The translations under genes and the position numbers were made by a program. 26,761 nucleotides of DNA, from the NCBI GenBank assembly GCA_002104905.1, contig MCFE01000912.1, positions 1 through 26,761 of the forward strand, read 5' to 3'. This DNA is from Basidiobolus meristosporus CBS 931.73 (taxonomy: Eukaryota > Basidiobolomycota > Basidiobolomycetes > Basidiobolales > Basidiobolaceae). A model generated the notes under the pieces. That model was not told where the DNA came from. It did no database searches and saw only the letters and a program-made list of their open reading frames with translations. The stretch's first letter is position 1; every line of letters starts with the position of its first letter. Positions 3,959 to 26,761 of the stretch are shown piece after piece.

Positions 3959-3989
3959 CAGCCATTGCATGCGCTGATAAGTCAAGAAA

Positions 3990-4481
3990 ATGCAATTTAG
4001 CAGCAAGGGTGAGAATCTACTGAAGTCCATCGAGGGCCTATCGTTGCAACCGTACGATGATCAAAAGGGCCTGAGTTCGGCGCCAATCAAGAGCTGGGTT
4101 GCAGGAGCAACCATTGGGTACGGACACCTGATCCCCAGCGCTCAGTGGAGCAAGTACAAGAGCGGCATCACCAAGGCCGAGGCTGAAGCCCTTTTCCAAG
4201 CCGACCTCAAGCCATTCGTGCAGGCTGTCAACGATTCGGCCAAAGTGAAGCTCCAGCAGCAGTTTGATGCCTGCGTGCTTTTATGCTTCAACATTGGCGT
4301 TAGTGCATTCAAGACCTCCTCTGTAGTCAAGATCCTGAACGGGCAAACCACCAGCTACCCCTCCCTGGAAGCGGCCTGGAAAGCCTGGAACAAGAGCCAA
4401 GGACAGGTGAATGCTGGACTGGTCAACAGACGAAATGCCGAATGGAAAATCTATACACAAGGAATCTACGAGAAGTGGTAG
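3990..4481 (+). CDS. Phage-type lysozyme (glycoside hydrolase family 24)
   Basis: A 163-residue protein, the usual length for the T4/P21-type endolysin family, which cleaves the beta-1,4 bond between N-acetylmuramic acid and N-acetylglucosamine in bacterial peptidoglycan. The catalytic triad is visible: Glu15 in SIEGLSL (T4 Glu11), Asp24 in YDDQKG (T4 Asp20) and Thr41 in TIGYGH (T4 Thr26). The insert between Asp and Thr (SSAPIKSWVAGA) is like that of proteobacterial prophage endolysins. A second conserved patch is NIGVSAF followed by the C-terminal VNRRNAEWKIY. The gene is intronless with its own TATA box and an AATAAA after the stop. No signal peptide precedes the domain in this frame, so export is unexplained. 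The family is bacterial or phage in origin, and horizontal acquisition is inferred. A fungus would use it against bacteria or for bacterial cell-wall feeding. Confidence 0.93.
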   Translation: MQFSSKGENLLKSIEGLSLQPYDDQKGLSSAPIKSWVAGATIGYGHLIPSAQWSKYKSGITKAEAEALFQADLKPFVQAVNDSAKVKLQQQFDACVLLCFNIGVSAFKTSSVVKILNGQTTSYPSLEAAWKAWNKSQGQVNAGLVNRRNAEWKIYTQGIYEKW

Positions 4482-6646: not shown

Positions 6647-7160
6647 CTGTGGCACTCCTGCTGCCCCTTTTCGGGCATTTTCATGGATGCAAGGGTACTA
6701 ATCCATGCTTCCACATTACTGATAGAGTGGATGATCCAGAGAAGCATGGGGTAATTACCAAGGCTTTAGTGAATCCATGTTTGTTCCCTGCAGAACTACT
6801 GAGGACGAGAGCGCAGCGCACAGAAGAAGTCAAGTACAGCAGCAAGCGGGTTTATTCCAGCTCTGGATTTACCGACCATCCATGCGGATATTTGGTGATG
6901 GCTTAGCAGTCAAGAACAGGCCATCATGTACATTATACTCTAATTGCTTGGAATCAACAATGCTACTACAATAGCACTATTATAGTCACCAAAACTGATT
7001 CCTTCATTTCAATTCAATAATCATCTGACAAATAGATTTTATTAATGATTCTTACTCAATGAAAGTACAAAAATACTACTGGTTGATTGCATGTTGGCCG
7101 GTGACTATTGACATGAATTCAGGATCTAGCTAATATCAATCAATCGCCTGTGAAAGTCAG

Positions 7161-7400
7161 CTAATCGCTGCATTGAATGAGGGAGCATGACTTGCAGTTG
7201 GTGTAGTTGGGCCAGCCTTGGGCTTGGCATTTCACATTCTGGTCGGTGCACTGCACGGTGGTTCCGGAGACATAGCAAGATCTGGTACCGAGGGAGAGGG
7301 CGCTGGCACACTTCTGGGCGGAGGAGCCGCATTGAAGAGAGAACTGGGTGGCGCTGACGGCCAAGCCGAAGAAAGCGATGACAAGAGCAGCAGTACGCAT
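7161..7400 (-). CDS. Secreted eight-cysteine protein, 79 aa, array copy 1
   Basis: Signal peptide MRTAALVIAFFGLAVSA (residues 1-17), then a 62-residue mature peptide with eight cysteines at 24, 31, 42, 51, 58, 69, 72 and 77, enough for four disulfides. A WPNY motif (63-66) and a possible N-glycosylation site (NYT, 65-67) are visible. I do not recognise the family. This copy carries Ala34 (CASALSLG), like copy 3. The TATA box is at 7462-7468, 62 bp upstream of the ATG. The compact, secreted, multicopy form fits an effector, antimicrobial or surface peptide; function is unknown. A long frame on the opposite strand is a shadow. Confidence 0.82.
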   Translation of the reverse strand: MRTAALVIAFFGLAVSATQFSLQCGSSAQKCASALSLGTRSCYVSGTTVQCTDQNVKCQAQGWPNYTNCKSCSLIQCSD

Positions 7401-7461
7401 TAGTGTAGATGGAGTTGGAGCGTTGTAGGTGTTTGTGATGTCCGTAGGTACTGCGTTGATC

Positions 7462-7468
7462 TTTTATA
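7462..7468 (-). promoter_or_regulatory. TATA box, array copy 1
   Basis: TATAAAA on the minus strand, 62 bp before the ATG at 7400. Confidence 0.55.
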
Positions 7469-8264
7469 ACAGACAGCTTTAGTTGAGATACCGTAAAAAT
7501 GGAGTCGGACAGAGGATTCTGCACTTCTCCAGGTCACACTATCATGCGGACTATTTTTAGTGGCTGAGGAAAAGAGCCGGCTCGGCTTGATGAATTGATA
7601 GGCCTAGTCAAGCAAGGATTTTATGGACCACTATCCGCATTCTTAGCCCTGGGTTACGAGACATTACTCCATAAAGAACCTCACATCAAAATTGGTGATT
7701 GATAATGAAATGCAACGGTGTAAAGCCCCTGGCTGGAATGGCTGTATCCTAGCACCAGCCTTTGGTAAGTCGACCCAATGGAAAGCAAAAGGAAAGTGGG
7801 ATAAATCTCCGGTACAACTGAAAGGGCCAATAAGATTGATTGATTCGCTGGCGAGAGGTTACGCCACGAGTAAGTTCAGTAAGACTGTTACATCAGTATA
7901 GCGCAACCCATGAGTGGAAAATTGAAACAATCAATTCTCTGGTACAATGTCGATCTGACCCATATTAGTGAAATAGTACAAAATCATCAGAGATGTTTAA
8001 CAAGGTTATTGGTCCATGCTTATTATGAATTCCTTGACACAATTCCGGTCCATTCCATGCTTGAAAATGAAGTTGCACAAAACCTTATTAAACAACTAAC
8101 GAGATGCCTTCGTATTTTGTTTCATTTATTCACAAAGGTTGCTAGCTGACACTTTAAATTTGATGAAAATGCTGAATGATAACCGGGTTCAATCAGAATG
8201 ACCTGATGATGCTTGCCAGGTCAAGGTAGCCTCGGAATCGCATTCAGTCGCCAGTAAAAGCCAG

Positions 8265-8504
8265 CTAATCGCTGCATTGAATGAGGGAGCATGACTTGCA
8301 GTTGGTGTAGTTGGGCCAGCCTTGGGCTTGGCATTTCACATTCTGGTCGGTGCATTGCACGGTGGTTCCGGAGACATAGCAAGATCTGGTACCGAGGGAG
8401 AGGGAGCTGGCACACTTCTGGGCGGAGGAGCCGCATTGGAGAGAGAACTGGGTGGCGCTGACGGCCAAGCCGAAGAAAGCGATGACAAGAGCAGCAGTAC
8501 GCAT
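8265..8504 (-). CDS. Secreted eight-cysteine protein, 79 aa, array copy 2
   Basis: Identical to copy 1 except Ser34 for Ala34 (CASSLSLG), a variant shared with copy 4. The signal peptide and all eight cysteines are intact. Its promoter, with the TATA box at 8565-8572, is nearly the same as that of copy 3, so units 2 and 3 share the most recent duplication or conversion upstream. The coding variant at residue 34 nevertheless pairs copy 2 with copy 4. That mosaic pattern points to gene conversion in the array. Confidence 0.82.
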   Translation of the reverse strand: MRTAALVIAFFGLAVSATQFSLQCGSSAQKCASSLSLGTRSCYVSGTTVQCTDQNVKCQAQGWPNYTNCKSCSLIQCSD

Positions 8505-8564
8505 TGGTATAGAAGAAGGTAGAACTTTGCAGATGTTCGTGATGACTAGAGGTGTCTTGTTGCC

Positions 8565-8572
8565 TTTTTATA
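8565..8572 (-). promoter_or_regulatory. TATA box, array copy 2
   Basis: TATAAAAA on the minus strand, about 61 bp before the ATG at 8504. Confidence 0.55.
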
Positions 8573-9459
8573 GCAGATGGGCATATTCAAAAAACTGGAA
8601 AAACGAAGCGAATTGACCAGAGGATTCCCGCTCCGTAAGGTCGTACTAATGTCCACAATTAAGATACAGGAAAAATGGAGTAGGACAGAGTACTATACAC
8701 TTCTCCAGGTTACATTATCTTGCGGAGTATCTTCAGTTGTGTGTCCAGAATGCCTAATTGCTGAAGAAAAGAGCCGACTCGGCTTGATGGGGTTTGATAG
8801 GCGCAATCAAGCAAGGATTTCCACGACCACTATCCACAACCGATTTACGAGTTATTGCTTCATTACGATTCTCACTTCGGAGTTGGTAATTAATAGTGAG
8901 AAGTAACTATGCAAAGTCCCTGGCTGTAAAGGCTCAAGACTAGGCCTGGCCTACAGCACATCGACCCATTGAAGAACGTTGGGAAGGTAGGAGTAATATC
9001 CGGCACAACCGAAAGAGCAATAGCCGTCGAGAGTATAGAATGATTATCTGATGGGAAGTAGCGCCACTAGTAAGCTCAGTAGGATTTTTGTTTCGATTCA
9101 AATGCAATCCAGATGGAGCAGCCCATGAGTGGAAAATCGGAACAAATCAATTCTCAGGTACAACGTCGATCCATTCCATATCTGGAAGCGAAATAGTCCA
9201 AAACCATCTGCACTGTTCAAGTCATCCAGGTTAATAATTGATACTTACTACGGATTCTCAGGCACAATACCGATCTACTTCATATTGGCAAGTGAGGGTG
9301 CACAAAATCCAGAACTTGTTAAAACTAATGAAATATATTGAAATTTTATTTGATTTATTAAAAATGTTATAAGATAACCGCATTCTTTCAGATAGACCTG
9401 ATGATGTTTGCCAGGTCAACGTAGCCTCGGAACCGCATTCAGTCGCCAGTAAAAGCCAG

Positions 9460-9699
9460 CTAATCGCTGCATTGGATGAGGGAGCATGACTTGCAGTTGG
9501 TGTAGTTGGGCCAGCCTTGGGCTTGGCATTTCACATTCTGGTCGGTGCACTGCACGGTGGTTCCGGAGACATAGCAAGATCTGGTACCGAGGGAGAGGGC
9601 GCTGGCACACTTCTGGGCGGAGGAGCCGCATTGGAGAGAGAACTGGGTGGCGCTGACGGCCAAGCCGAAGAAAGCGATGACAAGAGCAGCAGTACGCAT
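9460..9699 (-). CDS. Secreted eight-cysteine protein, 79 aa, array copy 3
   Basis: Protein identical to copy 1 (Ala34), with intact signal peptide and eight cysteines. The promoter block (TATA at 9760-9767) matches copy 2 almost base for base for about 100 bp. About 70 bp of 3' flank matches copies 2 and 4. No break is visible, and I expect it to be expressed like its neighbours. Confidence 0.82.
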   Translation of the reverse strand: MRTAALVIAFFGLAVSATQFSLQCGSSAQKCASALSLGTRSCYVSGTTVQCTDQNVKCQAQGWPNYTNCKSCSLIQCSD

Positions 9700-9759
9700 T
9701 GGTATAGAAGAAGGTAGAACTTTGCAGATGTTCGTGATGACTAGAGGTGTCTTGTTGCC

Positions 9760-9767
9760 TTTTTATA
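9760..9767 (-). promoter_or_regulatory. TATA box, array copy 3
   Basis: TATAAAAA on the minus strand, about 61 bp before the ATG at 9699. Confidence 0.55.
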
Positions 9768-10645
9768 GCAGATGGGCATATTCAAGAAGCTGGAAAAACG
9801 AAGCGAATTGACCAGAGGATTCCGCGCTCCGTATGGTCGCACCAATATGCATGGTACCGTTGGCTGTGTCGGGTATGTCTAGAATATGTCTTTATGTTTG
9901 ACGGAAATAGCTGATGCGGTTTGATTGGTAAAATCTCGCCAGCACAGCAAGAGATGTGACAATCGTTTACCACAAGTAATTACCACGGGCCATTGCTTCA
10001 CAAAGATCCTCCCATCAGAATATGTATTCACGAGTGGAAATCTGACAGAAACGGCTGACGACTAGGCCGAATCTACGTTAGTGCAACCTATTAGAGAATA
10101 CGAGAAATCGGATACAATATCCCGCAAAACTCGAAGTTCACTGGTCGTAAATAAAGCCGATTGGTTCACTGGCTTATATTGATATTGTCCACATAATCCA
10201 GATGGAGAAATACGTACACATAAACAGCAATAACCAACCAATCAATGCCCGGTACGGTGTGTGCAATTGAAGGTAAAAAATAATCCGAACTTTCATTTTA
10301 TCCAATTATTCGGCCAAATCGGCGCTGTAAAGGATTGATTTTATTTGTATGTAATAAATTTCAGTTTGGAAATAATTCACTTGCTGTTGTCCTGATCATG
10401 CCTGCATAATATATTCGGTTAGTGTCATCCTGTTATGTCTCACGAGAGTTAAGCCAACCGGGATAATGAGCAAAGGGTGAATCGTTTCTTTATTTATTAA
10501 GGTCACAGCTCCAATCCATGTGCAGTAATACTTGAAACTGTTGAAAATGTTGTGTAATAAAGGCGGTTCTCAACGAAAAAGTTCTGATGATGCTTGCCAG
10601 GTCAAGGTAGCCTCGGAATCGCATTCAGTCGCCAGTAAAAACCAG

Positions 10646-10885
10646 CTAATCGCTGCATTGGATGAGGGAGCATGACTTGCAGTTGGTGTAGTTGGGCCAG
10701 CCTTGGGCTTGGCATTTCACATTCTGGTCGGTGCACTGCACGGTGGTTCCGGAGACATAGCAAGATCTGGTACCGAGGGAGAGGGAGCTGGCACACTTCT
10801 GGGCGGAGGAGCCGCATTGGAGAGAGAACTGGGTGGCGCTGACGGCCAAGCCGAAGAAAGCGATGACAAGAGCAGCAGTACGCAT
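10646..10885 (-). CDS. Secreted eight-cysteine protein, 79 aa, array copy 4
   Basis: Protein identical to copy 2 (Ser34). A longer in-frame reading would start at 11029, but I choose the ATG at 10885. It begins the conserved signal peptide, matches the other three copies, and lies 61 bp after a TATATAAG box. The 48 extra codons upstream are promoter and leader sequence read through by chance. This is the most upstream unit of the array, and its promoter is the most different of the four. Confidence 0.82.
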   Translation of the reverse strand: MRTAALVIAFFGLAVSATQFSLQCGSSAQKCASSLSLGTRSCYVSGTTVQCTDQNVKCQAQGWPNYTNCKSCSLIQCSD

Positions 10886-10945
10886 TGGTGTAGATGAAGT
10901 TAGAACTTTGCAAGTGTTTGCAAAATCTACAGGTACCATCCTCCA

Positions 10946-10953
10946 CTTATATA
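10946..10953 (-). promoter_or_regulatory. TATA box, array copy 4
   Basis: TATATAAG on the minus strand, 61 bp before the ATG at 10885. Its position falls inside the longer alternative frame, which argues against the longer start. Confidence 0.5.
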
Positions 10954-11379
10954 TCAGTTGACTACAATAGCGATCCAGGGAATATAAAGTGAGTATGACT
11001 GAGAGTATCTTCTTTCTCGACCATGTCATCTTTTAACTGACTTGGTGCAACGTGAAATGTAATTACGAGTCATGGCGTCAGGGAAATTCGCACTGCAGTT
11101 CGACACAGCACCATAATTTGTGGCCAATAGTGAAATGTTACTAAAAAGAATCTCAGTCATGAGACTAGGCCCTACTCGTGATACGGGCAAGGTGGCAAAA
11201 ACATCGGGTGCCACTAAAGCCGACTGGTTCCTGGGCAAAACACATCTACTATCAGATTCAAGAATAATCTAGCAGGGGTTATACATGTTTAACGGTGGAG
11301 ATTAATTGAAATTCAATGCCGATCTGCTCCATATAAAGGCCTTACCTGTATCTATGTCTGGTGCTGAATAGAATATGCA

Positions 11380-12204
11380 CGAAGTAACGAAGTTAAAAGC
11401 AAACAGGAGTGAACTAGGTAACTAATCAGCTATTATTGTTACAGAAATAAATATAATACCTTGCGTAAAATGCGACATTTGTTGTTAGTTAATCCATGTC
11501 AAGTAAAATGTGTTAGGTAAACTGATCCAACTCACTATGTTAAATGGTATTAAACTGTATGCCTGAGGGAATGATATGGAGAATCAAACAAGAGCACATC
11601 TTAACTTTACTTACGCATACAGACGGCCTAAGCATATGCACTACTTTTATTGTTATTGTCATTATATCACGGCAGTATGCTTTCCAGTAGTGGCCGTAAT
11701 AAGATTGGGTAGAACGGTATACACATCTCCAATGTAAATTATATTCAAATCACCGTCGTAAGTGGCAACTTTATAGCATCAATTCCCACAAGCTTACAGA
11801 GAATCATTGGTCTAAACGTTGTCCATCATAGAAAGGAAAGTTCCACACCCAGTACCACGCATACAACATTACCTTTGATTGTGTAACTCATTCAGCATAA
11901 ATACTTAGACCTCGCTACCCAATGTATATCTTAGTGTTGTATGTTTTGATTAGGCTTTGAGCTTCCTGGGAAGAGTTGTTACGGAAATTGATAATGCATC
12001 CACAAATATAGGCCATGTAAGCCACGACTAGACAATGGAATTCGATGAAACTCACCACTGTGAAAGAGCTACCGATTCCAAATATAAAACGCAAATTACA
12101 ATCTTCTAACATGAAAAACAAAGGAACAACCAAACACTTCGCAAACTGTTTAATCACTCCTTAACCTCCATGGGATACAACATGAAACCCACAGAGTGAG
12201 AAGT
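11380..12204. other. Intergenic, no gene seen
   Basis: About 0.8 kb of AT-rich, CpG-containing sequence. A minus-strand frame at 11915-12157 begins with GTG and has mixed hydrophobic and Cys residues. I find no promoter or family and treat it as chance. Confidence 0.4.
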
Positions 12205-12277
12205 GGCCTCGTAGCTCAGTGGATAGAGCGTCCGCCTCCTAAGCGGAAGGTCCCAGGTTCGACCCCTGGCTTGGTTA
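12205..12277 (+). tRNA. tRNA-Arg(CCT), acceptor stem imperfect
   Basis: A 73-nt cloverleaf. The D arm is GCTC/GAGC with TA at positions 8-9. The anticodon arm is TCCGC/GCGGA with loop CTCCTAA, giving anticodon CCT. The T arm is CCAGG/CCTGG around TTCGACC. The acceptor stem GGCCTCG/CTTGGTT has two G-T wobbles and two mismatches (pairs 5-68 and 6-67), unlike a healthy tRNA. There is no intron. TTTTT at 12278-12282 is a Pol III terminator. A and B boxes are intact, so it may be transcribed, but the acceptor mismatches make it either a decaying copy or one needing repair. Confidence 0.8.
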
Positions 12278-12282
12278 TTTTT
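12278..12282 (+). terminator. Pol III terminator of tRNA-Arg(CCT)
   Basis: A run of five T immediately after the discriminator base. Confidence 0.6.
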
Positions 12283-14702: not shown

Positions 14703-15589
14703 GTTGTGCTTTTGTATAGCTGGCGTCACGCTATAAACACTTCAAAGTATGGGATTTACAGGCTCTGAGGCTTATCGCAGGCTGTGATATTGATGCCTCA
14801 TTTTTACAAGCGATTTCCATATACATGATATTATGGCTATTTATTCAGTTTGCAATTGTCAGTCTTTAGCGGTTTATTTGTGTCGTTCACTTTTGAGATC
14901 TGTTAGTATGGAGGTGCACTATTCAGCTATATTAATGCGTATTTATGGATCCAATCATCAATAGGAATCGAATTCGTAGAACTAGACAGGCGAATCTCGC
15001 AAAAGTATCATTGTAGGGTAGAGACAAACCTTTTAGCGGTGGGCATATTCAAAGTACTCACAATGTATTGAGGACCGTTGAAGCTCAGCAAGCGTTTCGA
15101 GGGATTCTATCACTTTCTGGAGAAAGAAACCCCACTATACTGTGACCTGATACATCTAAGTGTATGATATATCGCGTGCTATTCAACCCTAGTTGGCATG
15201 AAGCATGTCTTTTTTATCTGATACATACTCCTCGATTTTTAGAGAATTCAGTGTTAAGCTCAATAAACTCAGATCGGAGCGGTTAACTTTGATTAGTGAA
15301 TTCGATCAATTTTCGGACTGTGAAAATTGTCTATCTTTTATTTGAGTGCTGGGTTATAGTTTTATACTTCTAGGAATTCGCGCAGAAATTTTCAAATGAT
15401 TTCAAGCACAATAGTCGGTCTATTTGGAACCGAGTCGCTATAAAATTAACTATCACATGGAATGTAAGTTATGATATAAACCATGCGAGGCACAGTTAAT
15501 AAAGCAGTTCTCCTTTGACAATTGAAGTGGTTACGTTAGATCTTTTTCCTTTTGTAGGGTTGGATAATCCATAAACGACAGGTATATGC
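14703..15589. other. Intergenic, no gene seen
   Basis: About 0.9 kb with scattered CpG and many short A/T runs. I find no supported frame, RNA gene or repeat copy in it. Confidence 0.4.
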
Positions 15590-15662
15590 GGGGCGTTGGC
15601 CTAATGGATAAGGCATCAGACTTCGGATCTGGGGATTGTGGGTTCGAGTCCCATGCGCCTCG
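15590..15662 (+). tRNA. tRNA-Arg(TCG)
   Basis: A 73-nt cloverleaf: acceptor GGGGCGT/GCGCCTC (two wobbles, no mismatch), anticodon stem TCAGA/TCTGG with loop CTTCGGA giving anticodon TCG, and T loop TTCGAGT. There is no intron. The body closely resembles the eukaryotic tRNA-Arg family with TGGCCTAATGGATAAGGC in the D region. TTTTT at 15668-15672 ends transcription. Confidence 0.92.
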
Positions 15663-15667
15663 TATAC

Positions 15668-18741: not shown

Positions 18742-20628
18742 ATGAAATTCTCCGCACCAAGAATCTTGTGCTTCCTCTCTGGTTTGGCTGCAATCAACGC
18801 CGCAGCTTTCGATAGAAGACTACAGGCCAGAAGCGGTGGGGCTTACGACGTGACCGATCTATTTGACGGAGGGAATGAAAGTGGTGGTAGCGGAGCTGGC
18901 GCTTATGGCCCCGGAAATGGTGATAACGGAGGTGGCGGTAACGGCAATGGAGGCAATGGTGATGGCAGTGGCAACGGCGGTAATGGAGATGGAGATGGCA
19001 ATGGTAATGGAGGCAATGGAGCCGGTGCTTATAGCTCTGGCAATGGTGGAAATGGAAACGGCGGTAACGGCAATGGAGGCAATGGTGATGGCAACGGCAA
19101 CGGTGGTGACGGAGCCGGTGCTTACGACTCTGGAAACAGCAACGGCGGTAATGGAAATGGAGATGGCAATGGTAATGGAAGCGATGGGAACGGTGGTAAC
19201 GGAGCTGGTGCTCACGACTCTGGTAATGGTGGAAATGGAAATGGCGGTAACGGCAATGGAGGCAATGGTGATGGCAGTGGCAACGGCGGTAATGGGAATG
19301 GAGATGGTAATGGTAATGGAGGCAATGGAGCCGGTGCATATGGCTCTGGCAATGGTGGAAACGGAAACGGCGGTTACGGCAATGGAGGCAATGGAGGCAA
19401 TGGTGATGGCAATGGCAACGGTGGTGACGGAGCCGGTGCTTATGGCTCTGGCAATGGTGGAAACAGCAACGGCGGTAATGGAAATGGAAATGGAGATGGC
19501 AATGGAGGCGATGGGAACGGTGGTAACGGAGCTGGTGCTTACGACCCTGGTAATGGTGGAAATGGAAATGGCGGTAATGGCAATGGAGGCAACGGTGGTA
19601 ACGGGGCCAGTGCTTACGACTCTGGAAACGGCAACGGCGGTAATGCAAATGGAGGAAATGGAGATGGCAATGGTAATGGAGGCAATGGTGATGGCAATGG
19701 CAACGGTGGTAACGGAGCCGGTGCTTACGACTCTGGAAACAGCAACGGCGGTAATGGAAATGGAGATGGCAATGGTAATGGAGGCGATGGGAACGGTGGT
19801 AACGGAGCTGGTGCTCACGACTCTGGTAATGGTGGAAATGGAAATGGCGGTAACGGCAATGGAGGCAATGGTGATGGCAATGGCAACGGTGGTAACGGAG
19901 CCGGTGCTTACGACTCTGGAAATAGCAACGGTGGTAATGGAAATGGAGGAAATGGAGATGGCAATGGTAATGGAGGCGATGGGAACGGTGGTAACGGAGC
20001 TGGTACTTACGACTCTGGTAATGGTGGAAATGGAAATGGTGGTAACGGCAATGGAGGCAATGGTGATGGCAGTGGTAACGGCGGTAATGTAAATGGAGAT
20101 GGCAATGGAAACGGTGGCAGCAGAGCCGGTGCATATGACTCTGGCAATGGTGGAAACGGCGGTAACGGCAATGGAGGTAATGGTGCTGGCAATGGCAACG
20201 GCGGTAATGGAAATGGAGGAAATGATGATGGCAATGGCAAGGGAGGCAGTGGAGACGGTGCTTATGACTCTGGCGATGGTGGAAACGGAAATGGCGGTAA
20301 CGGCAATGGAGATGGCAACGGAGGCAACGGAGCCGGTACATATGACTCTGGCAATGGTGGAAACGGAAACGGTGGTAACGGCAATGGTAATGGAGGTATT
20401 GGCAACGGTAATGGAGGAAATGGAAACGGTGGTAACGGCGCTGGTACTTATGGCTCTGGAAACGGCAGCGGTGGCAACGGAAATGATGGCACTGGAGGCG
20501 GCAATGGCAATGGTGGTAACGGAGCCGGTGCTTATAACTCTGGAAATGATGGAAACGGAAACGGAGGCAATGGCTCTGGAAGTGGTAATGGGAATGGTGC
20601 CAGCAACGGTAGTGGCGATTGTCAGTAA
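18742..20628 (+). CDS. Secreted Gly/Asn-rich repeat protein, 628 aa
   Basis: Starts at MKFSAPRILCFLSGLAAINA, a signal peptide with likely cleavage near residues 20-22, then a short non-repetitive segment (FDRRLQARSG...YDVTDLFDGG). The remaining 580 or so residues are GNG/GNGG/GDG repeats. About 17 modules of 20-50 residues are each marked by a GAG(A/T)YDSGN-type punctuation containing the only aromatic residues (Tyr, sometimes His). The C-terminus ends GDCQ with one cysteine. Repeats are non-identical but show higher-order duplication. Such proteins are usually disordered extracellular matrix, wall or adhesive components; the regular Tyr could serve cross-linking. I do not recognise a specific family. 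The very long frames on the opposite strand and in another plus frame come from the repeat lacking stops. Confidence 0.85.
   Translation: MKFSAPRILCFLSGLAAINAAAFDRRLQARSGGAYDVTDLFDGGNESGGSGAGAYGPGNGDNGGGGNGNGGNGDGSGNGGNGDGDGNGNGGNGAGAYSSGNGGNGNGGNGNGGNGDGNGNGGDGAGAYDSGNSNGGNGNGDGNGNGSDGNGGNGAGAHDSGNGGNGNGGNGNGGNGDGSGNGGNGNGDGNGNGGNGAGAYGSGNGGNGNGGYGNGGNGGNGDGNGNGGDGAGAYGSGNGGNSNGGNGNGNGDGNGGDGNGGNGAGAYDPGNGGNGNGGNGNGGNGGNGASAYDSGNGNGGNANGGNGDGNGNGGNGDGNGNGGNGAGAYDSGNSNGGNGNGDGNGNGGDGNGGNGAGAHDSGNGGNGNGGNGNGGNGDGNGNGGNGAGAYDSGNSNGGNGNGGNGDGNGNGGDGNGGNGAGTYDSGNGGNGNGGNGNGGNGDGSGNGGNVNGDGNGNGGSRAGAYDSGNGGNGGNGNGGNGAGNGNGGNGNGGNDDGNGKGGSGDGAYDSGDGGNGNGGNGNGDGNGGNGAGTYDSGNGGNGNGGNGNGNGGIGNGNGGNGNGGNGAGTYGSGNGSGGNGNDGTGGGNGNGGNGAGAYNSGNDGNGNGGNGSGSGNGNGASNGSGDCQ
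18880..20610 (+). repeat. Coding minisatellite of 9-bp GGN AAY GGN units
   Basis: About 1.7 kb of imperfect 9-bp units encoding GNG, with interspersed GAT (Asp) and a recurring motif coding GAGAYDSGN. Blocks such as that around 19710-19850 recur at 19130-19250 and 19910-20010 with few changes. This indicates expansion by unequal exchange or slippage. Confidence 0.75.
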
Positions 20629-20950: not shown

Positions 20951-21051
20951 GAGGGGGAAGGAAAGTCATCAAGTGGTGAAATCTTTACTTACTTAAAATA
21001 AGCAAGTCTAAGGTTGCTCCTTGAAAGCTAGGCCTCACAGATATCTTGGCA
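20951..21051 (-). mobile_element. Decayed telomeric SINE-type fragment
   Basis: Its proximal end shows the shared tail (GGAAAGTCATCAAGTGGTGAAATCT at 20959-20983, described here in part only) with the hairpin already broken by one transition. It then has TTACTTA and a remnant of the first body hairpin (GAAAGCTAGG at 21034). The G-run before it no longer reads TTAGGG. This is the oldest recognisable member of the array. Confidence 0.55.
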
Positions 21052-21169
21052 AGGGAAACTCACCAAGAATTGGTGAGATCTTTATTTGCAGTCTGGATTA
21101 AATCAAACATAGAAGCCAGCAGGGATAAAGTCCCTTAAACAATAATTCTAAACTGAATTCAAAGCAGTA
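21052..21169 (-). mobile_element. Decayed telomeric element fragment
   Basis: Starts with GGGAAACTCACCAA and the hairpin TCACCAA/TTGGTGA at 21060-21076, followed by ATCTTTATTT and an AGAAGCCAGC box. It most resembles the short copy at 24853-24957. No TTAGGG remains at its proximal end. Confidence 0.5.
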
Positions 21170-22048
21170 TCCTAAAGAGTGAAATCCTTATCAAATATGC
21201 TAAATCAAGAAGCCAAGTTAGAATATAGATAACTGAAATGCAGAAAGCCTACAAGATAAACTTTGACTTTGCTGCTTCCCAAATATCCTTGGTATTAAAG
21301 TCTAGTGGAAAATACATTGTTGTGCATCAACATTTAAAACCTGGCCAATTACACTCTGTTAGAAAATCTAGTACCCTAACTGATTTTCCCTAACCCAAAC
21401 ATAACTAATCCCTGTTATGGTTTATTTTATCACTTCTCAGAATCTATTTTTAGCTGTCACACCTGATCAATTTTCATGTGATCATTACATCCTCAACTGA
21501 TCTGCTAAGCCTTTCCAAGTGAATAGTCATCTGAGATTTATCCAACCACTTAGCAGTTGCCAAGACATCAGCTGATTAATGATGCAATTTTTCATTTATC
21601 TTATGCACCTATCAACACCCCAACAGATTTCAATTAGTCCAGTCTCTTGGCACTTACTAATGCAATGCAATCAGAAAAGTATAAATAAAGTTTACTGAAC
21701 CTTTTGGTATAGTGTGTGTCTCAACAAAATTGAAATTGTGCCTTAGCAAAATTAAGAATTCCACAATTCCTTTCTAGTTTCCACCCAAGCCTAGCACATC
21801 CAGTATTCCCAAGAACACCAAGCCTAGCCTGTATAGCAAACCAACTCTGTTGCCTTTATAGCTCAACTCAACTATATACAAAACCAATATTTGACCAGAA
21901 GTTCTCTGCTAATATTTCTGTCACCCTTGACAATTCTAAGATTCTGCACTCAGTTATCACTTAGGTTCAGTTAACTCATTCAAGAGTTTTATTAAGCTTT
22001 TCTCTTGGATACAACACTGTCTTTGTTGAATTCCATTACATTCAGCAG
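21170..22048 (-). mobile_element. Decayed ORF1-type telomeric element, interrupted by an LTR
   Basis: From AAAGAGTGAAATCC through GAAGCCAAG (around 21210) to 21317 it follows the 3' part of the intact ORF1 element at 25510-25650, including the sequence of the last codons (TACAAGATAAACTTTGACTTTGC at 21251-21273, described here in part only). The LTR at 21318-22016 interrupts it. The 30 bp after the LTR (22017-22048) resembles the next part of ORF1, so the LTR probably inserted into this copy. Confidence 0.5.
21318..22016 (+). mobile_element. Solo-LTR-like element, right copy, 699 bp
   Basis: Runs TGTTGTGC...ATACAACA and is the inverted homologue of 309-1310. It lacks the 347-bp insertion found in the left copy and so shows the empty site near 21765-21785. 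No clear target duplication flanks it (TACAT against CTGTC). A TATAAATAAAG stretch at about 21681 could be promoter or polyA signal. No internal retroelement genes are adjacent. Confidence 0.55.
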
Positions 22049-22057
22049 TGTAGGGGG

Positions 22058-22076
22058 GAGACAGTCACCAACAGGT
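22058..22076 (-). mobile_element. 19-bp micro-copy of the RT-element 3' end
   Basis: GAGACAGTCACCAACAGGT is the exact terminal 19 bases of the RT-type element. It is preceded by TAGGGGGG and followed by AGGGGTAGGGGGGGG, after which the next copy begins with the same bases. It is either an extremely short insertion or a local duplication. Confidence 0.55.
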
Positions 22077-22090
22077 AGGGGTAGGGGGGG

Positions 22091-22294
22091 GGAGACAGTC
22101 ACCAACAGGTGAAATCTTTATTTCAGTTGAGACAAAGAAGCCAGCACTACTGTTGTAGCTTTGATACAAGAGTGTGTAGCTGAGGGGAATTTGTAGGTAA
22201 GTTGACAAGAAGTGATGATAGTTCTTCAGTGCTCAAGACACTGTTCAGGGGGAAGGGGGGTAGCAAGAGGGGTGAGAATGATTTGAGAACAACA
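22091..22294 (-). mobile_element. 5'-truncated RT-type element, about 200 bp
   Basis: Matches the last 200 bp of the RT element at 22839-24835 with few differences (about 50 codons of the RT-protein C-terminus plus the 3' tail). It is cut off at ACATT and joined on the telomere side directly to TTAGGGGTTAGGGGGGG. The proximal end carries the shared hairpin TCACC/GGTGA and CTTTATTT. Confidence 0.75.
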
Positions 22295-22310
22295 TTAGGG
22301 GTTAGGGGGG

Positions 22311-22826
22311 GAGGAAAGTCACCAAGTGGTGAAATCTTTATTTACTTATGACAAGTATCTAAAGAAGCCAAGTTAATCTGAAGTAATTCCTAGGAAGCTA
22401 GGTCTGAGAGGTATCTTCCTGGTAAGCCAGGTCTGAGAGTTGAGAAGCTGAGTGGTACTGTATTTCCTAGTAAGCTAGGTCTGAGAGAGGTTTCCTGGAA
22501 AGCCAGGCATGAGAATTGAGAATCTGAGTATATCTGAGGTGAAGTGTACTGATTTGCGGTAGCTGATTTGTGGCCGGAATGGCCAGTAGACTGGGGGAAC
22601 TGAGGGAAATATCTGGGTGATCACTGGCCAAATTTACTAGGCAAATCTGACCAATTAGCATTTCAAGGATTTCAGCCAATCAGAGCCTTTACTTTGCCCG
22701 ATGGTTGATCAAGCCATCTCCCAATGAGCACACATCAATTTATTGATCAAATTTTGTTGGATCCAGGATTTGAACCCACAACCATGGGTATGGAAGGGTT
22801 AGGGATAACCACAAGGCTGTGTTCTT
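22311..22826 (-). mobile_element. Telomere-attached tRNA-derived SINE, copy 1 (about 517 bp, full length)
   Basis: Sense is minus. The 5' end (22826) carries a Pol III-like promoter: A box CAGCCTTGTGG (22819-22809) and perfect B box GGTTCAAATCC (22776-22766), whose starts are 43 nt apart, as in a tRNA. The body contains four short hairpins (22389-22507) and no frame. The 3' end is the tail shared with the RT and ORF1 elements: GGCTTCTTT, AAATAAAGATTTCACCA, CTTGGTGACTTTCC, then C-rich sequence running into CCCTAA. Both ends abut G-rich telomere-like tracts (22295-22310, 22827-22838). A second copy lies at 24973-25489. This is the architecture of a SINE that borrows a LINE 3' end. It would depend on the RT of another element. 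Confidence 0.75.
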
Positions 22827-22838
22827 GGTTAGGGGGGG

Positions 22839-24835
22839 AGACAGTCACCAACAGGTGAAATCTTTATTTCAGTTGAAACAAAGAAGCCAGCGCTACTGTT
22901 GTAGCTTTGATACAAGAGTGGGTAGCTGAGGGGAATTTGTAGGTAAGTTAATAAGAAGTGATGATAGTTCTTCAGTGCTCAAGACACTGTTCAGTGGGAA
23001 GGGGGGTAGCAAGAGAGGTAAGAATGGCTTGTGAACAACATTAATGAGGGGAATGTGATAAGGATTGATGTTCATCATAAAGGGAGTGTGCTGCTGCAGA
23101 TATTGCTGCCAAAGGTCTGTCAAGTACTTCAGGTAGGCCAGCTTGGGTTTTTCTGACTGCAGAATGTAGTGAGCAAACTTCTTGACTTCAGGATCTCCAA
23201 GTATAGTTCTCCAGCAGGAGCCAGGTGTTGTGTGGTGTGTTCTCTTCCAGGCCTTAATCAGTGGGTTGTTGCAGTTGTGAAGTCTGAGGTATAATCTGGT
23301 TCTAAGGTGGAGAAGTCTGATCTTATAGGGCATAAACCCAAAAGCACCAAGAATAGCATGTCTGTAGGGGCATTCAGGCAAATGAGGCACCAAGGAGGTA
23401 ATGCACCATACTGCAAACTTGTCAAGCTTAGTGCAGTCTCTAGAAGTAAGAGAGAGAAGTGGTAAGCCAAATTCCAGGACAGGGAAGACAAACTGCTTGA
23501 GTAGAAGGAGGCAGCTGGGAGCTGAAGTTGTAGGAGGAGTAACAGCCAGTAGCTTGTGGAGTGCCTGTCTTGCTAGGATAATTCTCTTCTTCAGGTGTGC
23601 TCCAGAGTCTAGTCCAGTAGGAAGGAAAGGAAAGCCAAGATATGTAGCAGAAACCTGAGCAGGTAGAGTGAAGTTCTCCAAGCGGATGGGAGAGCCCAAA
23701 GGTACTGTCTTTGCAATGGAAAGCTGGAGATTATTCTTCTGCAGATACTGGTGGATGGTCTGGGAGTCTTGTTGCACATTGGAGGAGGATATTCTGATGT
23801 CAGCAGCAAAGAGAGTAACCAGGCAGTCAGCTGAGAGTCTTGGGAAATCATTCAGGAAGATGGCAAACAGTATAGGACCAAGCACAGAGCCTTGAGCCAC
23901 TCCATTAGGAACTGAGAACACTGGTGATTGCTCACTTGGGTGCAGAATTCTTGCTTGTGGATCCAGAAACAGAGACCTGACAAGGAGGGTGGGAGAGGTA
24001 CTGGAGAAGCATTGCAACTTGGACCAAAGCAGATTTCTGTCAACTGAATCAAAGGCCTTAGTAATATCAAACAGAACTGAGAGATACTTGCACTGGAGAG
24101 AGTGATCTTGGCTAAGTATGACTGCATATTCCAAGGAGAGGCCAGGAACAAAGCCAAACTGTGCAGGATGAAACTTGAGGGAGTCAGAGTAGAGCTCCTG
24201 AGCAAGCAGAAGCTCAAACACCTTTCTGCAGGTGGGCAGCAGAGATATTGGCCTGTAGGAGCTAGGATCCAGGTGCTTTCCTTTACCCTTGTACAGTGGC
24301 AGAACATTTACAAAGGACCATTCCTCAGGAGTAGAAAGCTGGGCTGAGCATTGCTGAAACAGTGGAAGCAGAAGTGCAGACATGGCCTTGGTACTAGTCT
24401 TCAGAAGCTCATAAGAGATTGTGTCCACACCTGGAGCAGTAGAGTTGGGAAGCCTCTTGAGCACATTATGGATTCTCCTTTGATCAAGTGCAAGTGGGAT
24501 GGGCAGAGTCTTGAAGTCAGGATGAAAGCCATGAGTTGAGTACTGCTTTGTAGAGAAGAAGATGTTAGCCAGCTGTTCTGTTGAAGGTAACTTCCTGGAA
24601 GAGGGCCTCATTGCCCTGTAGAGTCTTGATACTGTTCTCGTTATAGAGTTGGAAGATTGCAGAGGCAAAGAACTCATAATATGATCCCAGAGCTGAGTAT
24701 GCAGAGTGTGGTGAATTGCCTTGGAGTGGTGTATGGCTGTCAGGAGGAGTTTCTCTGTTTTTGGGTTAGGGAAACTCAGGTAGCTTTGTTGCAGGGCTGA
24801 AACAATAGATTCTCATTTTCTTGAGGTAACAGCAG
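22839..24835 (-). mobile_element. 5'-truncated telomeric RT element
   Basis: A non-LTR retroelement lacking its 5' part. The 3' end (22839) bears the shared tail only about 50 bp after the RT stop codon, then CTCCCCCCCTAACC. There is no poly(A). The 5' end breaks off at 24835 and joins TTAGGGTGTTAGGG. The coding frame is open almost to the break (24812), where a TGA interrupts it. No endonuclease domain is present in what remains; whether the intact element had one cannot be told. Confidence 0.85.
22893..24812 (-). pseudogene. Non-LTR reverse transcriptase (ORF2-like), truncated and with a lost catalytic Asp
   Basis: The open frame runs from 24812; its first ATG, at 24677, begins a 594-residue stretch. 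Numbering from that Met, RT motifs appear in order: APGVDTISYELLK (81-93), YRPISLLPTCRKVFE (141-155), FGFVPG (174-179), motif A FDITKAFDSVD (203-213), motif B NGVAQGSVLGPILF (258-271), motif C LFAADIRIS (289-297). Motif C should read (Y/F)ADD, but the first Asp is Ala292 (GCT for GAT, base 23803), which should abolish polymerisation. A thumb (LQLSIAKT) and a long C-terminal region without RNase H or zinc knuckle follow. It belongs to the LINE (jockey-like) RTs broadly. This copy cannot be autonomous, and an active relative must exist elsewhere. Confidence 0.85.
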
Positions 24836-24852
24836 TTAGGGTGTTAGGGGGG

Positions 24853-24957
24853 AGGGAAAGTCACCAAGTTGGTGAAATCCTTATTTGAGTTAAGAACTAA
24901 TCTAGGTACAAATAAAGAAGCCAATTAAGAGGTCTAGAACCTCTCTAATAAGTAATC
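24853..24957 (-). mobile_element. Short 5'-truncated telomeric element, about 105 bp
   Basis: Tail variant with hairpin TCACCAA/TTGGTGA (24862-24876), CCTTATTT and an AAAGAAGCCAA box, then about 45 bp of unique sequence. It is bounded by TTAGGGTGTTAGGGGGG on one side and TTAGGGTTAGGGGGG (24958-24972) on the other. It resembles the decayed copy at 21052-21169 and may represent a fourth member of the family. Confidence 0.65.
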
Positions 24958-24972
24958 TTAGGGTTAGGGGGG

Positions 24973-25489
24973 AGGAAAGTCACCAAGTGGTGAAATCTTT
25001 ATTTACTTATGACAAGTATCTAAAGAAGCCAAGTTAATCTTAAGTAATTCCTAGAAAGCTAGGTCTGAGAGATATCTTCCTGGTAAGCCAGGTCTGAGAG
25101 TTGAGAAGCTGTGTGGTACTACATTTCCTAGTTAGCTAGGTCTGAGAGAGGTTTCCTGGAAAGCCAGGCCTGAGAAGTGAGAATCTGAATATATCTGAGC
25201 TAAGTTATACTGGTTTGTGGTAGCTGAATTGTGGCCGGAATGGCCAGTAGACTGGGGGAACTACGATGAATTTCTGGGCAATCACTGGCCAAATTTACTA
25301 GGCAAATCTGGCCAATCAGCATTTCAAGGATTTCAGCCAATCAGAGCCTTTACTTTGCCCGATGGTTGATCAAGCCATCTCCCAATGAGCACACACCAAT
25401 TTATTAATCAAATTTTGCTGGATCCAGGATTTGAACCCACAACCATGGGTATGGAAGGGTTAGGGATAACCACAAGGCTAAGTGTTCTT
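24973..25489 (-). mobile_element. Telomere-attached tRNA-derived SINE, copy 2 (517 bp, full length)
   Basis: The same structure as 22311-22826. A box TAGCCTTGTGG is at 25480-25470 (one mismatch to the consensus TRGCNNAGTGG), B box GGTTCAAATCC at 25437-25427, with starts 43 nt apart. The four hairpins fall at about 25050-25165. The 3' tail has GGCTTCTTT, AAATAAAG and the hairpin. Identical 5' ends and nearly equal lengths in two independent junctions show that this is the complete element, not a truncation. The sequence between the A and B boxes contains CCCTAACCC in sense. Confidence 0.78.
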
Positions 25490-25500
25490 GGTTAGGGGGG

Positions 25501-26563
25501 GATGATCATCACCAAAGGGTGAAATCTTTATTTAAATAATAAATAAAGAAGCCAAGTTTGCATATGAATATCTGAGATGGAGGAAGCCTACAAGATAAAC
25601 TTGGACTTTGCTGTATCCCAAATATCCTCAATATCAAAGTCTAGAGGAGAGTGTAGCAAGACTGCTTGTTCACTGTAGTATTTCTTGAGGAAGTTTGTGA
25701 CTTGAAGGGAAGGAGAGTTTTTCAACAAGCTGGTAAATCTTTTCAGGAGTTCTTTTTCCAGAGAGAATGGCACAAAGAGTGGAATGTCCAAATGATGTCT
25801 GAATATATGCTCTGAGAGCTCCCAATCCAGCATATTTTTGACTTCTTCTGTAAAATCTTCAACAATATCTTTGTCAAGAATAACTTCCAAGAGATCCCTG
25901 GCAATGTACTGAATGTTAATAATCTTGGGCATATGAATACCTAGGTCCTTGAGGTAGTTTCTTTGTTCTGATATTGGGAGATATCCAGCATTTCTGAAAT
26001 AGCAAACTGCCCAGTTGGCAGTAGGAGGAGTATCAGGGCTGACAGGGAATCTTCTTCTGGCTTTAGAGTGGGCTGGCTTAGGAGACTGTCTTGATGGAAG
26101 GGCAGCTGGTTTTGGATGAGCTTGAAGTGCTTGGGAGTAGGTCTGAGTACAAGTAGTAGAAGTTCCTGGTTGCTGAGAATTTTCAGATTGACTGGATGAA
26201 GAGCTAATTGAGGGGTTGCAAGGTAAGGAAGAAGCTGAAAGAGAAGTGGAGAGGGCTGGGTGGAGTTCAGAAAGAGTTTTGAAAAGAATTTGGATCTGAG
26301 ATTTCAACATTGAGTTTTCAGCTTCAAGAAGAGAAACTCTTTGTTCAAGGTAAGAAGTCTGTAAAGAGTGAAAGTTAGGTAAAGACATGGAAGTAGTAAG
26401 TAAGAAAAAAGGAGTAGTTGGGGTGGGAGGGTGGGAAAATAGGTAAGAAGAAAAGAGAGGAAAGATCTGAAATTGAAAATCTCAGAATTTATAGATGGAT
26501 GGACAAGGGTAGAGGATTGATTAATCCAGGGCTAGGGAAAAATAGGTAAGAAGAAAAGAGAGG
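25501..26563 (-). mobile_element. Telomeric element encoding only an ORF1-like protein, about 1.06 kb
   Basis: Sense runs from the telomere (26563) inward. It has a pyrimidine-rich 5' UTR, one protein gene, an 87-bp 3' UTR with TTGGCTTCTTT, AAATAAAGATTTCACCC and TTTGGTGATGATC, then CCCCCCTAACC. Both ends touch telomeric sequence, so the element seems complete, yet it has no RT gene. This resembles Drosophila HeT-A, which codes only for Gag. The 5' UTR contains two direct copies of a 28-29-bp motif (26433-26460 and 26535-26563), the outer one ending exactly at the telomere. Confidence 0.75.
25588..26388 (-). CDS. ORF1-like coiled-coil protein of a telomeric non-LTR element
   Basis: 266 residues from the ATG at 26388 to a TAG. 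Residues about 12-43 (YLEQRVSLLEAENSMLKSQI and following) form a heptad coiled coil. Residues 45-85 are Ser-rich and low in complexity. Residues 86-120 are Pro and basic-rich (SKARRRF). Residues 122-266 form a mixed alpha/beta domain (WAVCYFRNAGYLP..., MPKIINIQYIARDLLEVIL, then acidic helices). Coiled coil, basic linker and C-terminal domain is the layout of LINE ORF1 nucleic-acid chaperones, which trimerise and bind the element RNA. No CCHC knuckle is seen. I assign function by architecture and location, not by a family match. Confidence 0.65.
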   Translation of the reverse strand: MSLPNFHSLQTSYLEQRVSLLEAENSMLKSQIQILFKTLSELHPALSTSLSASSLPCNPSISSSSSQSENSQQPGTSTTCTQTYSQALQAHPKPAALPSRQSPKPAHSKARRRFPVSPDTPPTANWAVCYFRNAGYLPISEQRNYLKDLGIHMPKIINIQYIARDLLEVILDKDIVEDFTEEVKNMLDWELSEHIFRHHLDIPLFVPFSLEKELLKRFTSLLKNSPSLQVTNFLKKYYSEQAVLLHSPLDFDIEDIWDTAKSKFIL

Positions 26564-26761
26564 GTTAGGGTTAGGGTTAGGGTTAGGGTTAGGGTTAGGT
26601 TAGGTTAGGGTTAGGGTTAGGGTTAGGGTTAGGGTTAGGGTTAGGGTTAGGGTTAGGGTTAGGGTTAGGGTTAGGTTAGGGTTAGGGTTAGGGTTAGGGT
26701 TAGGGTTAGGGTTAGGGTTAGGGTTAGGGTTAGGGTTAGGGTTAGGGTTAGGGTTAGGGTT
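26564..26761 (+). repeat. Telomere, TTAGGG repeats
   Basis: About 200 bp of TTAGGG running 5' to 3' toward the window end, with a few TTAGG units (near 26597-26605 and 26671). Orientation and terminal position fit a true chromosome end, probably cut off by read or assembly length. Its G-strand end is the presumed primer and landing site for the elements to its left. Confidence 0.97.

Follow-up and report, generated by a model that had tools for sequence, protein, structure and literature searches.

Head-to-tail arrays of telomere-attached non-LTR retroelements at chromosome ends of Basidiobolus meristosporus and their possible attachment to short telomeres

A contig of 26,761 nucleotides from the fungus Basidiobolus meristosporus CBS 931.73 (MCFE01000912.1; C1216 in the contig numbering used here), hereafter called the window and referring to the whole stretch analysed, raises the question of how a series of retroelements came to lie in a single orientation just inside a telomere. 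It is one of 1,311 contigs in an assembly of 89.0 Mb. The window is a chromosome end at which retroelements stand head to tail, with their 3' ends inward, preceding a TTAGGG array. They belong to a consortium of at least five families: two autonomous long interspersed nuclear elements (LINEs), RT1 and RT2; two families, ORF1a and ORF1b, that carry only the first open reading frame (ORF1); and one short interspersed nuclear element (SINE). The features that can be read from the DNA are orientation, terminal location, a predicted two-stem 3' end, a run of C in register with the telomeric GGG, 5' truncation and, in a sample of junctions, inner telomeric tracts of 0-5 units. The elements seem to have accumulated by successive additions to telomeres that were very short. 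The explanation favoured here, with a probability of roughly two in three, is that this consortium of telomere-attached elements of the type without long terminal repeats (non-LTR) attaches to ends that are already short, the 3' end of the G strand priming synthesis through the C-run and telomerase seeding repeats afterwards. The members found in the window are as follows, from the telomere inward.

26561-26761, plus strand: terminal telomere, (TTAGGG)n, 0.2 kb, about 33 units, by sequence reading.
25497-26560, minus strand: ORF1a element, outermost and abutting the telomere, by match to a reference copy.
25588-26481, minus strand: complete ORF1a reading frame of 297 amino acids, with a putative coiled coil, an RRM-like domain and a helical C-terminus.
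24972-25489, minus strand: full-length SINE (outer), with an A box and a B box at its 5' end and the two-stem 3' tail common to the families.
24849-24958, minus strand: scrap of an RT2 LINE, its last 110 bp, 5'-truncated, by match to a reference copy.
22837-24836, minus strand: RT1 LINE, 5'-truncated to 2.0 kb, by match to a reference copy.
22893-24812, minus strand: open frame of this RT1 copy, 639 amino acids, without endonuclease and with the catalytic motif FAAD, by open reading frame and motif reading.
22311-22826, minus strand: full-length SINE (inner), 94% to the outer SINE of the window, by match to a reference copy.
22091-22297, minus strand: last 207 bp of an RT1 LINE, by match to a reference copy.
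22053-22076, minus strand: RT1 scrap of about 24 bp, flanked by two telomere-like junctions.
21320-22044, no strand assigned: LTR-like interspersed repeat, inside the array and outside the consortium, by repeat search.
21174-21309, minus strand: decayed ORF1a-like 3' region, 82%, by match to a reference copy.
21052-21090, minus strand: decayed RT2-like 3' end, 90% over 39 bp.
20951-21047, minus strand: decayed SINE-like 3' end, 73%, the innermost member.

Several of the reference copies come from the window itself, and their 100% identity carries no weight. All consortium members in the window, seven clear copies and three decayed ones, lie on the minus strand with the 3' end leftward and the telomere at 26561-26761. 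Six of the clear copies can also be given a left boundary a few bases further inward than in the list, at 22087 (RT1), 22307 (SINE), 22833 (RT1), 24845 (RT2 scrap), 24964 (SINE) and 25492 (ORF1a). An oriented head-to-tail series with one kind of 3' end had been proposed in a preliminary description of this DNA and is borne out; the junctions placed near 22051, 22077, 22295, 22827, 24836, 24958 and 25490 are all present, each as a G-run that comes after TTAGGG-like sequence, reduced to TAGGG at 22051 and 22077. That description did not include the second LINE family (the RT2 scrap beside RT1), the endonuclease of the apurinic/apyrimidinic (APE) type or the LTR-like repeat that interrupts the array. 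The reverse transcriptase (RT) copy of the window, RT1, is dead; it has lost its endonuclease and has FAAD in place of FADD. The named relatives of its frame are all from B. meristosporus CBS 931.73, covering 38% of the frame at 96% (P0002), 46% at 91% (P0008) and 64% at 62% (P0003). The LTR-like repeat is about 700-725 bp long; its window copies at 1-1310 and 21320-22044 are mutually inverted, at 77-80%, and two copies stand about 5.2 kb apart in both C1142 and C816.

The shared tail was searched as an exact pattern across the 89 Mb assembly, with the reversed pattern as a control. It is not a chance motif, because 1,554 copies were found (1,429 forward, 125 reverse) versus 0 in the control. 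Matches to (TTAGGG)6 were themselves forward-heavy (6,568 forward, 68 reverse), telomeres lying mostly to the right in assembled contigs; strand counts of the tail alone therefore prove nothing, and direction relative to the nearest contig end was scored instead. Among the first 100 of the 1,554 tails, on 28 contigs (sizes of C1, C2 and C83 taken from clipped loci), 92 pointed inward from the nearest end, and the other eight were confined to three contigs of 19-20 kb (C27, C32 and C45). On the 11 contigs of this set longer than 100 kb, 38 of 38 tails pointed inward, all at most 22.2 kb from the end. For RT1, 69 copies were scored among 1,556 candidates, 48 of them on contigs of known size; 43 of these 48 pointed inward, and on contigs of at least 40 kb 36 of 37 did so, within 10 kb of the end. 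The five exceptions lay on contigs of 10-18 kb (C217, C323, C204 and C96) and on C726. The LTR-like repeat served as a control: 40 of 911 candidates were scored, the 47 matches comprised 19 plus and 28 minus, and copies also occurred well inside contigs, for example at position 98,376 of the 172,275 bp of C14. Attachment to telomeres with 3' ends inward, as first described, thus holds in the large contigs, and the copies are neither mostly internal nor, C726 excepted, in both orientations. Division of the 6,568 forward matches by 23.9 per array gives an estimate of about 275 telomere-like ends, implying very many chromosomes or separated haplotypes. A predicted telomerase gene is present in the assembly: a telomerase RNA-binding domain scored above the Pfam cut-off in C880, in two pieces, and was absent from all 14 control genomes.

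The 3' end and its junction with telomeric repeats were analysed in 104 tails. All five families end in two predicted stems, then a pyrimidine stretch, then a C-run. Stem B (UCACC/GGUGA) belonged to the search pattern and its constancy in the sample proves nothing; it is supported because a whole-genome pattern with free loop letters matched, with zero control matches. Both arms of stem A (UCUUUxxxxx/xxxxxAAAGA) could be placed in 101 of the 104 tails, the far arm belonging to the neighbour in a few very short copies. Its loops are family-specific; pair 10 is A-U, C-G or G-C by family, pair 6 is A-U or G-U, and the SINE lacks pairs 7 and 8. Covariation is seen in this one of the two predicted stems. 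On the genomic plus strand the junction carries a G-run 3-9 long in 103 of the 104 cases, preceded by T(1-3)A in 96, and the element joint therefore lies within the GGG of the telomere repeat. The tails end in this C-run and not in poly(A), which agrees with the earlier proposal that the RNA 3' end is complementary to the telomeric G strand.

The tracts between neighbours are short. Counted up to the G-run, inner telomere-like units numbered 0 in eight junctions, 1 in 62, 2 in 24, 3 in five, 4 in four and 5 in one, so that 70 of 104 had 0 or 1. Twelve terminal arrays measured 140-238 bp, or 23-40 units, and uniform insertion into a 33-unit array would be expected to leave at most 5 inner units in about 18% of cases. 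Genome-wide, the tail directly followed TTAGGG in 1,293 matches (some tails counted twice), and at least four perfect units preceded it in 28, of which 26 were distinct, a count that excludes imperfect units and uses a looser tail anchor than that for the 1,554. The contrast between inner tracts of 0-5 units and the 23-40 units of true ends suggests that elements are added where the telomere is short already. In eleven of the 104 tails no element was recognised immediately inside. By reading, the one from the window adjoins an RT1 scrap and that of locus L030 adjoins RT2 sequence; in the remaining nine the tracts are equally short. At L145 a frame that encodes a truncated RNase H and the integrase domain of an LTR element is followed by one TTAGGG and then by the innermost RT1 scrap, an arrangement as would be expected if a broken end had been seeded and captured. 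A full-length SINE was the inner neighbour in 39 cases, 31 of them with exactly one unit. Twenty-two SINE 5' ends continue into at least four units; those in C21, C52, C77 and C83 and at either end of C424 lie at contig ends, and those in C291, C424:311,593 and C980 are inner junctions, among the tails with at least four units. In uncensored copies the truncation points are all distinct (RT1 21 of 21, ORF1a 6 of 6, ORF1b 6 of 6).

Intact RT elements, whose recovery the preliminary description had proposed, encode their own ORF1 together with an APE-type endonuclease and an RT. The predicted RT is of the non-LTR type (Pfam RVT_1, 2.6e-25): by sequence it matches L1 ORF2p at 1.9e-21 and R2 at 3.7e-8, and by fold L1 and R2 tie. 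The endonuclease is N-terminal in ORF2 and matches the APE type in fold and motifs, with Asp (LIDV) at the position of the catalytic Glu. MoTeR, FoTeR and CNL1, as CRE/R2-like elements, are typified by a C-terminal restriction-like endonuclease with a CCHC knuckle. No CCHC-type motif was found by pattern in ORF2 of RT1 or RT2, and no dedicated profile of the restriction-like endonuclease was run. In both families ORF1 lies upstream of ORF2, so that neither has a single reading frame, and the two ORF1 products match at 42% (2e-71). In RT1 (L061, L017 and L019) and RT2 (L145), ORF1 stops at UGA, and CUA and ORF2 continue in the same frame; ORF2 has no Met before residue 142 in RT1 and residue 59 in RT2, positions that fall in both cases within the endonuclease. 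UGA CUA is a known context of stop-codon read-through, and its position between the two frames suggests that read-through may occur here. Among the 100 RT1 junctions listed of 131 pattern matches, 99 read UGA CUA and one UGA UUA, which is weak evidence because the RT1 copies are young. The 13 bases TCTGCCTGACTAC at the junction are identical in RT1 and RT2, and this agreement is stronger evidence than that among RT1 copies. One RT2 copy (L146) has a frame-shifted ORF1.

The preliminary description had divided the labour in three, among an RT supplier, an ORF1 supplier and a SINE. That division does not stand: because intact RT elements carry ORF1, they do not depend on the ORF1-only elements for it. 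The products of the latter, of 297 (ORF1a) and 271 (ORF1b) amino acids, are homologous to RT1 ORF1 (29%, 4e-18 and 35%, 6e-22, respectively). The only outside relatives found for ORF1a are two Basidiobolus ranarum proteins, one covering 89% of the query at 62% and the other 35% at 70%. The structure model of ORF1a shows a helix of 46 residues, an RRM-like domain with modest support and a helical end; in L1-type ORF1 proteins a coiled coil is followed by an RRM. One ORF1a pair differs by 36 synonymous versus 26 non-synonymous changes, a ratio of non-synonymous to synonymous rates (dN/dS) of 0.19 (binomial p 1.5e-9), and two ORF1b pairs gave 0.41 and 0.46; at least ORF1a is therefore maintained as a protein. 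It may be a working partner, though not the sole supply of ORF1. In the SINE, which measures about 520 bp, the B box (GGTTCAAATCC) is exact and the A box has at most one mismatch; their starts are 43 nt apart, and both are assigned by sequence only. A search of Rfam that allowed E values as high as 1 gave no tRNA match for it.

In the favoured explanation, read-through of the UGA would yield an ORF2 protein that would recognise the 3' end which the RNAs of the five families have in common. The terminal C-run of such an RNA would pair with the GGG-3' of a chromosome end that is very short, or freshly broken and seeded, and the paired chromosomal 3' end would prime reverse transcription. Synthesis would stop at or before the RNA 5' end, which for the SINE would fall at or before CCCTAACC, and telomerase would seed repeats on the new end. 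Restoration of about 33 units would close the end; with a tract still of 1-3 units the next element might attach, and arrays would grow in bursts. A broader scheme, tentative and somewhat against the odds, is a two-tier repair of ends, in which telomerase would hold normal ends at about 200 bp and short or broken ones would be captured by the LINE, ORF1-only and SINE machinery priming on a bare GGG-3'. The ORF1-only proteins would then act, like the Gag of HeT-A, as a targeting subunit for the RNAs of all five families, and the SINE RNA 5' end would carry a telomere seed.

The chief rival is endonuclease-dependent, target-primed insertion in the manner of TRAS and SART, with an APE nick in the G strand within TTAGGG near the array base and the outer repeats kept or regrown. 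The APE fold and motifs of the LINEs and a junction phase fixed at GGG in 96 of 104 cases would suit it. A cut anywhere in an array of 23-40 units, however, should often leave many inner units, and neither the maximum of five in the sample nor the 26 distinct tails with at least four perfect units genome-wide fits this. SART1 requires at least three repeats (PMC7265360), yet at most one unit is present in 70 of the 104 junctions. Inside the tract, the sequence also varies at each truncated neighbour, so the boundary itself cannot be read from sequence; this rival is considered unlikely. Lower still is the probability that true insertions were few and that the arrays owe their formation and spread chiefly to recombination or break-induced copying from end to end, as for MoTeR arrays. 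Break-induced MoTeR expansions are reported (PMC7367193), and in several contigs tandem SINEs have similar junctions (CTTGG-TTAGGG) and may have been copied. Recombination is nevertheless unlikely as the main source because the truncation points all differ; the families are also arranged in many orders. It is highly improbable that ordinary LINE and SINE insertions occurred everywhere and were retained near telomeres through selection. Internal copies might be purged, and CNL1 of Cryptococcus can also hit a gene (PMC12810828), but telomere-phase junctions occur on 96 of 104 tails, including those beside non-element DNA, copies have a single orientation and tails lack poly(A), and the LTR-like repeat persists internally in the same genome in both orientations.

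Several observations weigh against attachment to short ends by G-strand priming. The main one is that the endonuclease motifs are conserved, yet a purely end-primed mechanism would not need an endonuclease. Eight of the 104 junctions lack T(1-3)A before the G-run, and the sample was picked by SINE match and intact tails. The single unit after full-length SINEs may be carried by the SINE RNA and not made by telomerase, and truncation could reflect erosion of the end instead of incomplete reverse transcription. In C726 (locus L143) RT1 sequence is inverted, in at least two pieces, about 9-12 kb from a telomeric end; one piece adjoins the LTR-like repeat, and the whole segment may have undergone an inversion. 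Individual inspection covered only a minority of the 125 reverse tails. The view that members are younger outward fits the decay of the inner ones in the window, but in 17 adjacent full-length SINE pairs the outer copy was not clearly the younger (9 against 7, one tie).

The arrays resemble those of HeT-A, TART and TAHRE of Drosophila in standing head to tail at chromosome ends with 3' ends inward and in having a partner with ORF1 (Gag) only. HeT-A has Gag but no RT, stands beside RT-bearing partners, and its Gag does the telomere targeting (PMC5537684); it is the closest parallel for the ORF1-only role. Drosophila telomere elements end in oligo(A) (PMC5537684), and Drosophila is without telomerase activity and telomeric repeats (PMC7265360), whereas Basidiobolus has a predicted telomerase gene, TTAGGG arrays, C-run tails in the GGG register and a SINE member. 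The Basidiobolus elements thus do not replace telomerase as those of Drosophila do. MoTeR, FoTeR and CNL1 are likewise fungal non-LTR elements at telomeres. MoTeR arrays are head to tail with the 5' end outward and TTAGGG tracts between, of more than 20 units at longest, and MoTeR2 is an RT-less partner; MoTeR1 (Magnaporthe) and FoTeR (Fusarium) are described as having a restriction-like endonuclease (PMC7367193, PMC12857005). CNL1 (Cryptococcus) is placed in the R2 superfamily, for which a single open reading frame is stated, and is nearest to MoTeR (PMC12810828). The Basidiobolus LINEs differ in their N-terminal APE endonuclease and separate ORF1, and their inner tracts reach at most five units in 104 junctions. 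TRAS and SART of Bombyx mori are also LINEs with an APE-type endonuclease in telomere repeats; SART1 inserts in the repeat body and needs three or more repeats and a long poly(A) tail, and pairing of the 3' part of its RNA with telomeric DNA has been proposed (PMC7265360). Insertion into the body of the repeat array does not fit the Basidiobolus junctions, most of which have 0 or 1 unit. To our knowledge, TRAS and SART have no SINE or ORF1-only partner. LINE-dependent SINEs in general carry 5' boxes of the RNA polymerase III type and share the structure of their 3' end with partner LINEs; the Basidiobolus SINE differs in being confined to chromosome ends as far as sampled. In the literature searched, whose reach mostly excluded subscription papers, neither a report of a telomere-confined SINE nor a paper on Basidiobolus telomeric elements was found, and passages of PMC4700185 contained nothing about fungi. 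The division among elements had been thought new in fungi; with MoTeR1 and MoTeR2 an RT-less partner is already known, and the novelty stands for the SINE as far as that search goes.

The remainder of the window holds other genes. A phage-type lysozyme gene in this fungal subtelomere (3981-4481, plus strand; Pfam PF00959, 1.8e-30) is possibly a bacterial acquisition. Four similar gene-like stretches lie at 7126-11032 on the minus strand; the clearest (10646-11032) encodes a small protein that contains cysteine, has a signal-like start (MRTAALVIAFFGLAVSA) and matches nothing in Pfam. Near the chromosome end lie two tRNA-Arg genes that differ in anticodon (12204-12278, CCT; 15589-15663, TCG), and a Gly/Asn-rich repeat protein with a signal-like start is encoded at 18742-20628 on the plus strand, where the repeats hold other frames open too.

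Fungal telomeric LINEs are already known (MoTeR, FoTeR and CNL1), in another lineage. If the explanation favoured here is true, Basidiobolus would hold a group of fungal telomere-attached LINEs that is separate from the MoTeR/CRE-like one and carries an APE endonuclease, and would provide the first case encountered of a SINE and constrained ORF1-only genes joining such arrays where telomerase exists. Read-through in a LINE could be tested simply at the UGA-CUA that separates ORF1 from ORF2. The short inner tracts make it measurable whether elements of this kind enter telomeres that are healthy or cap those that are failing.

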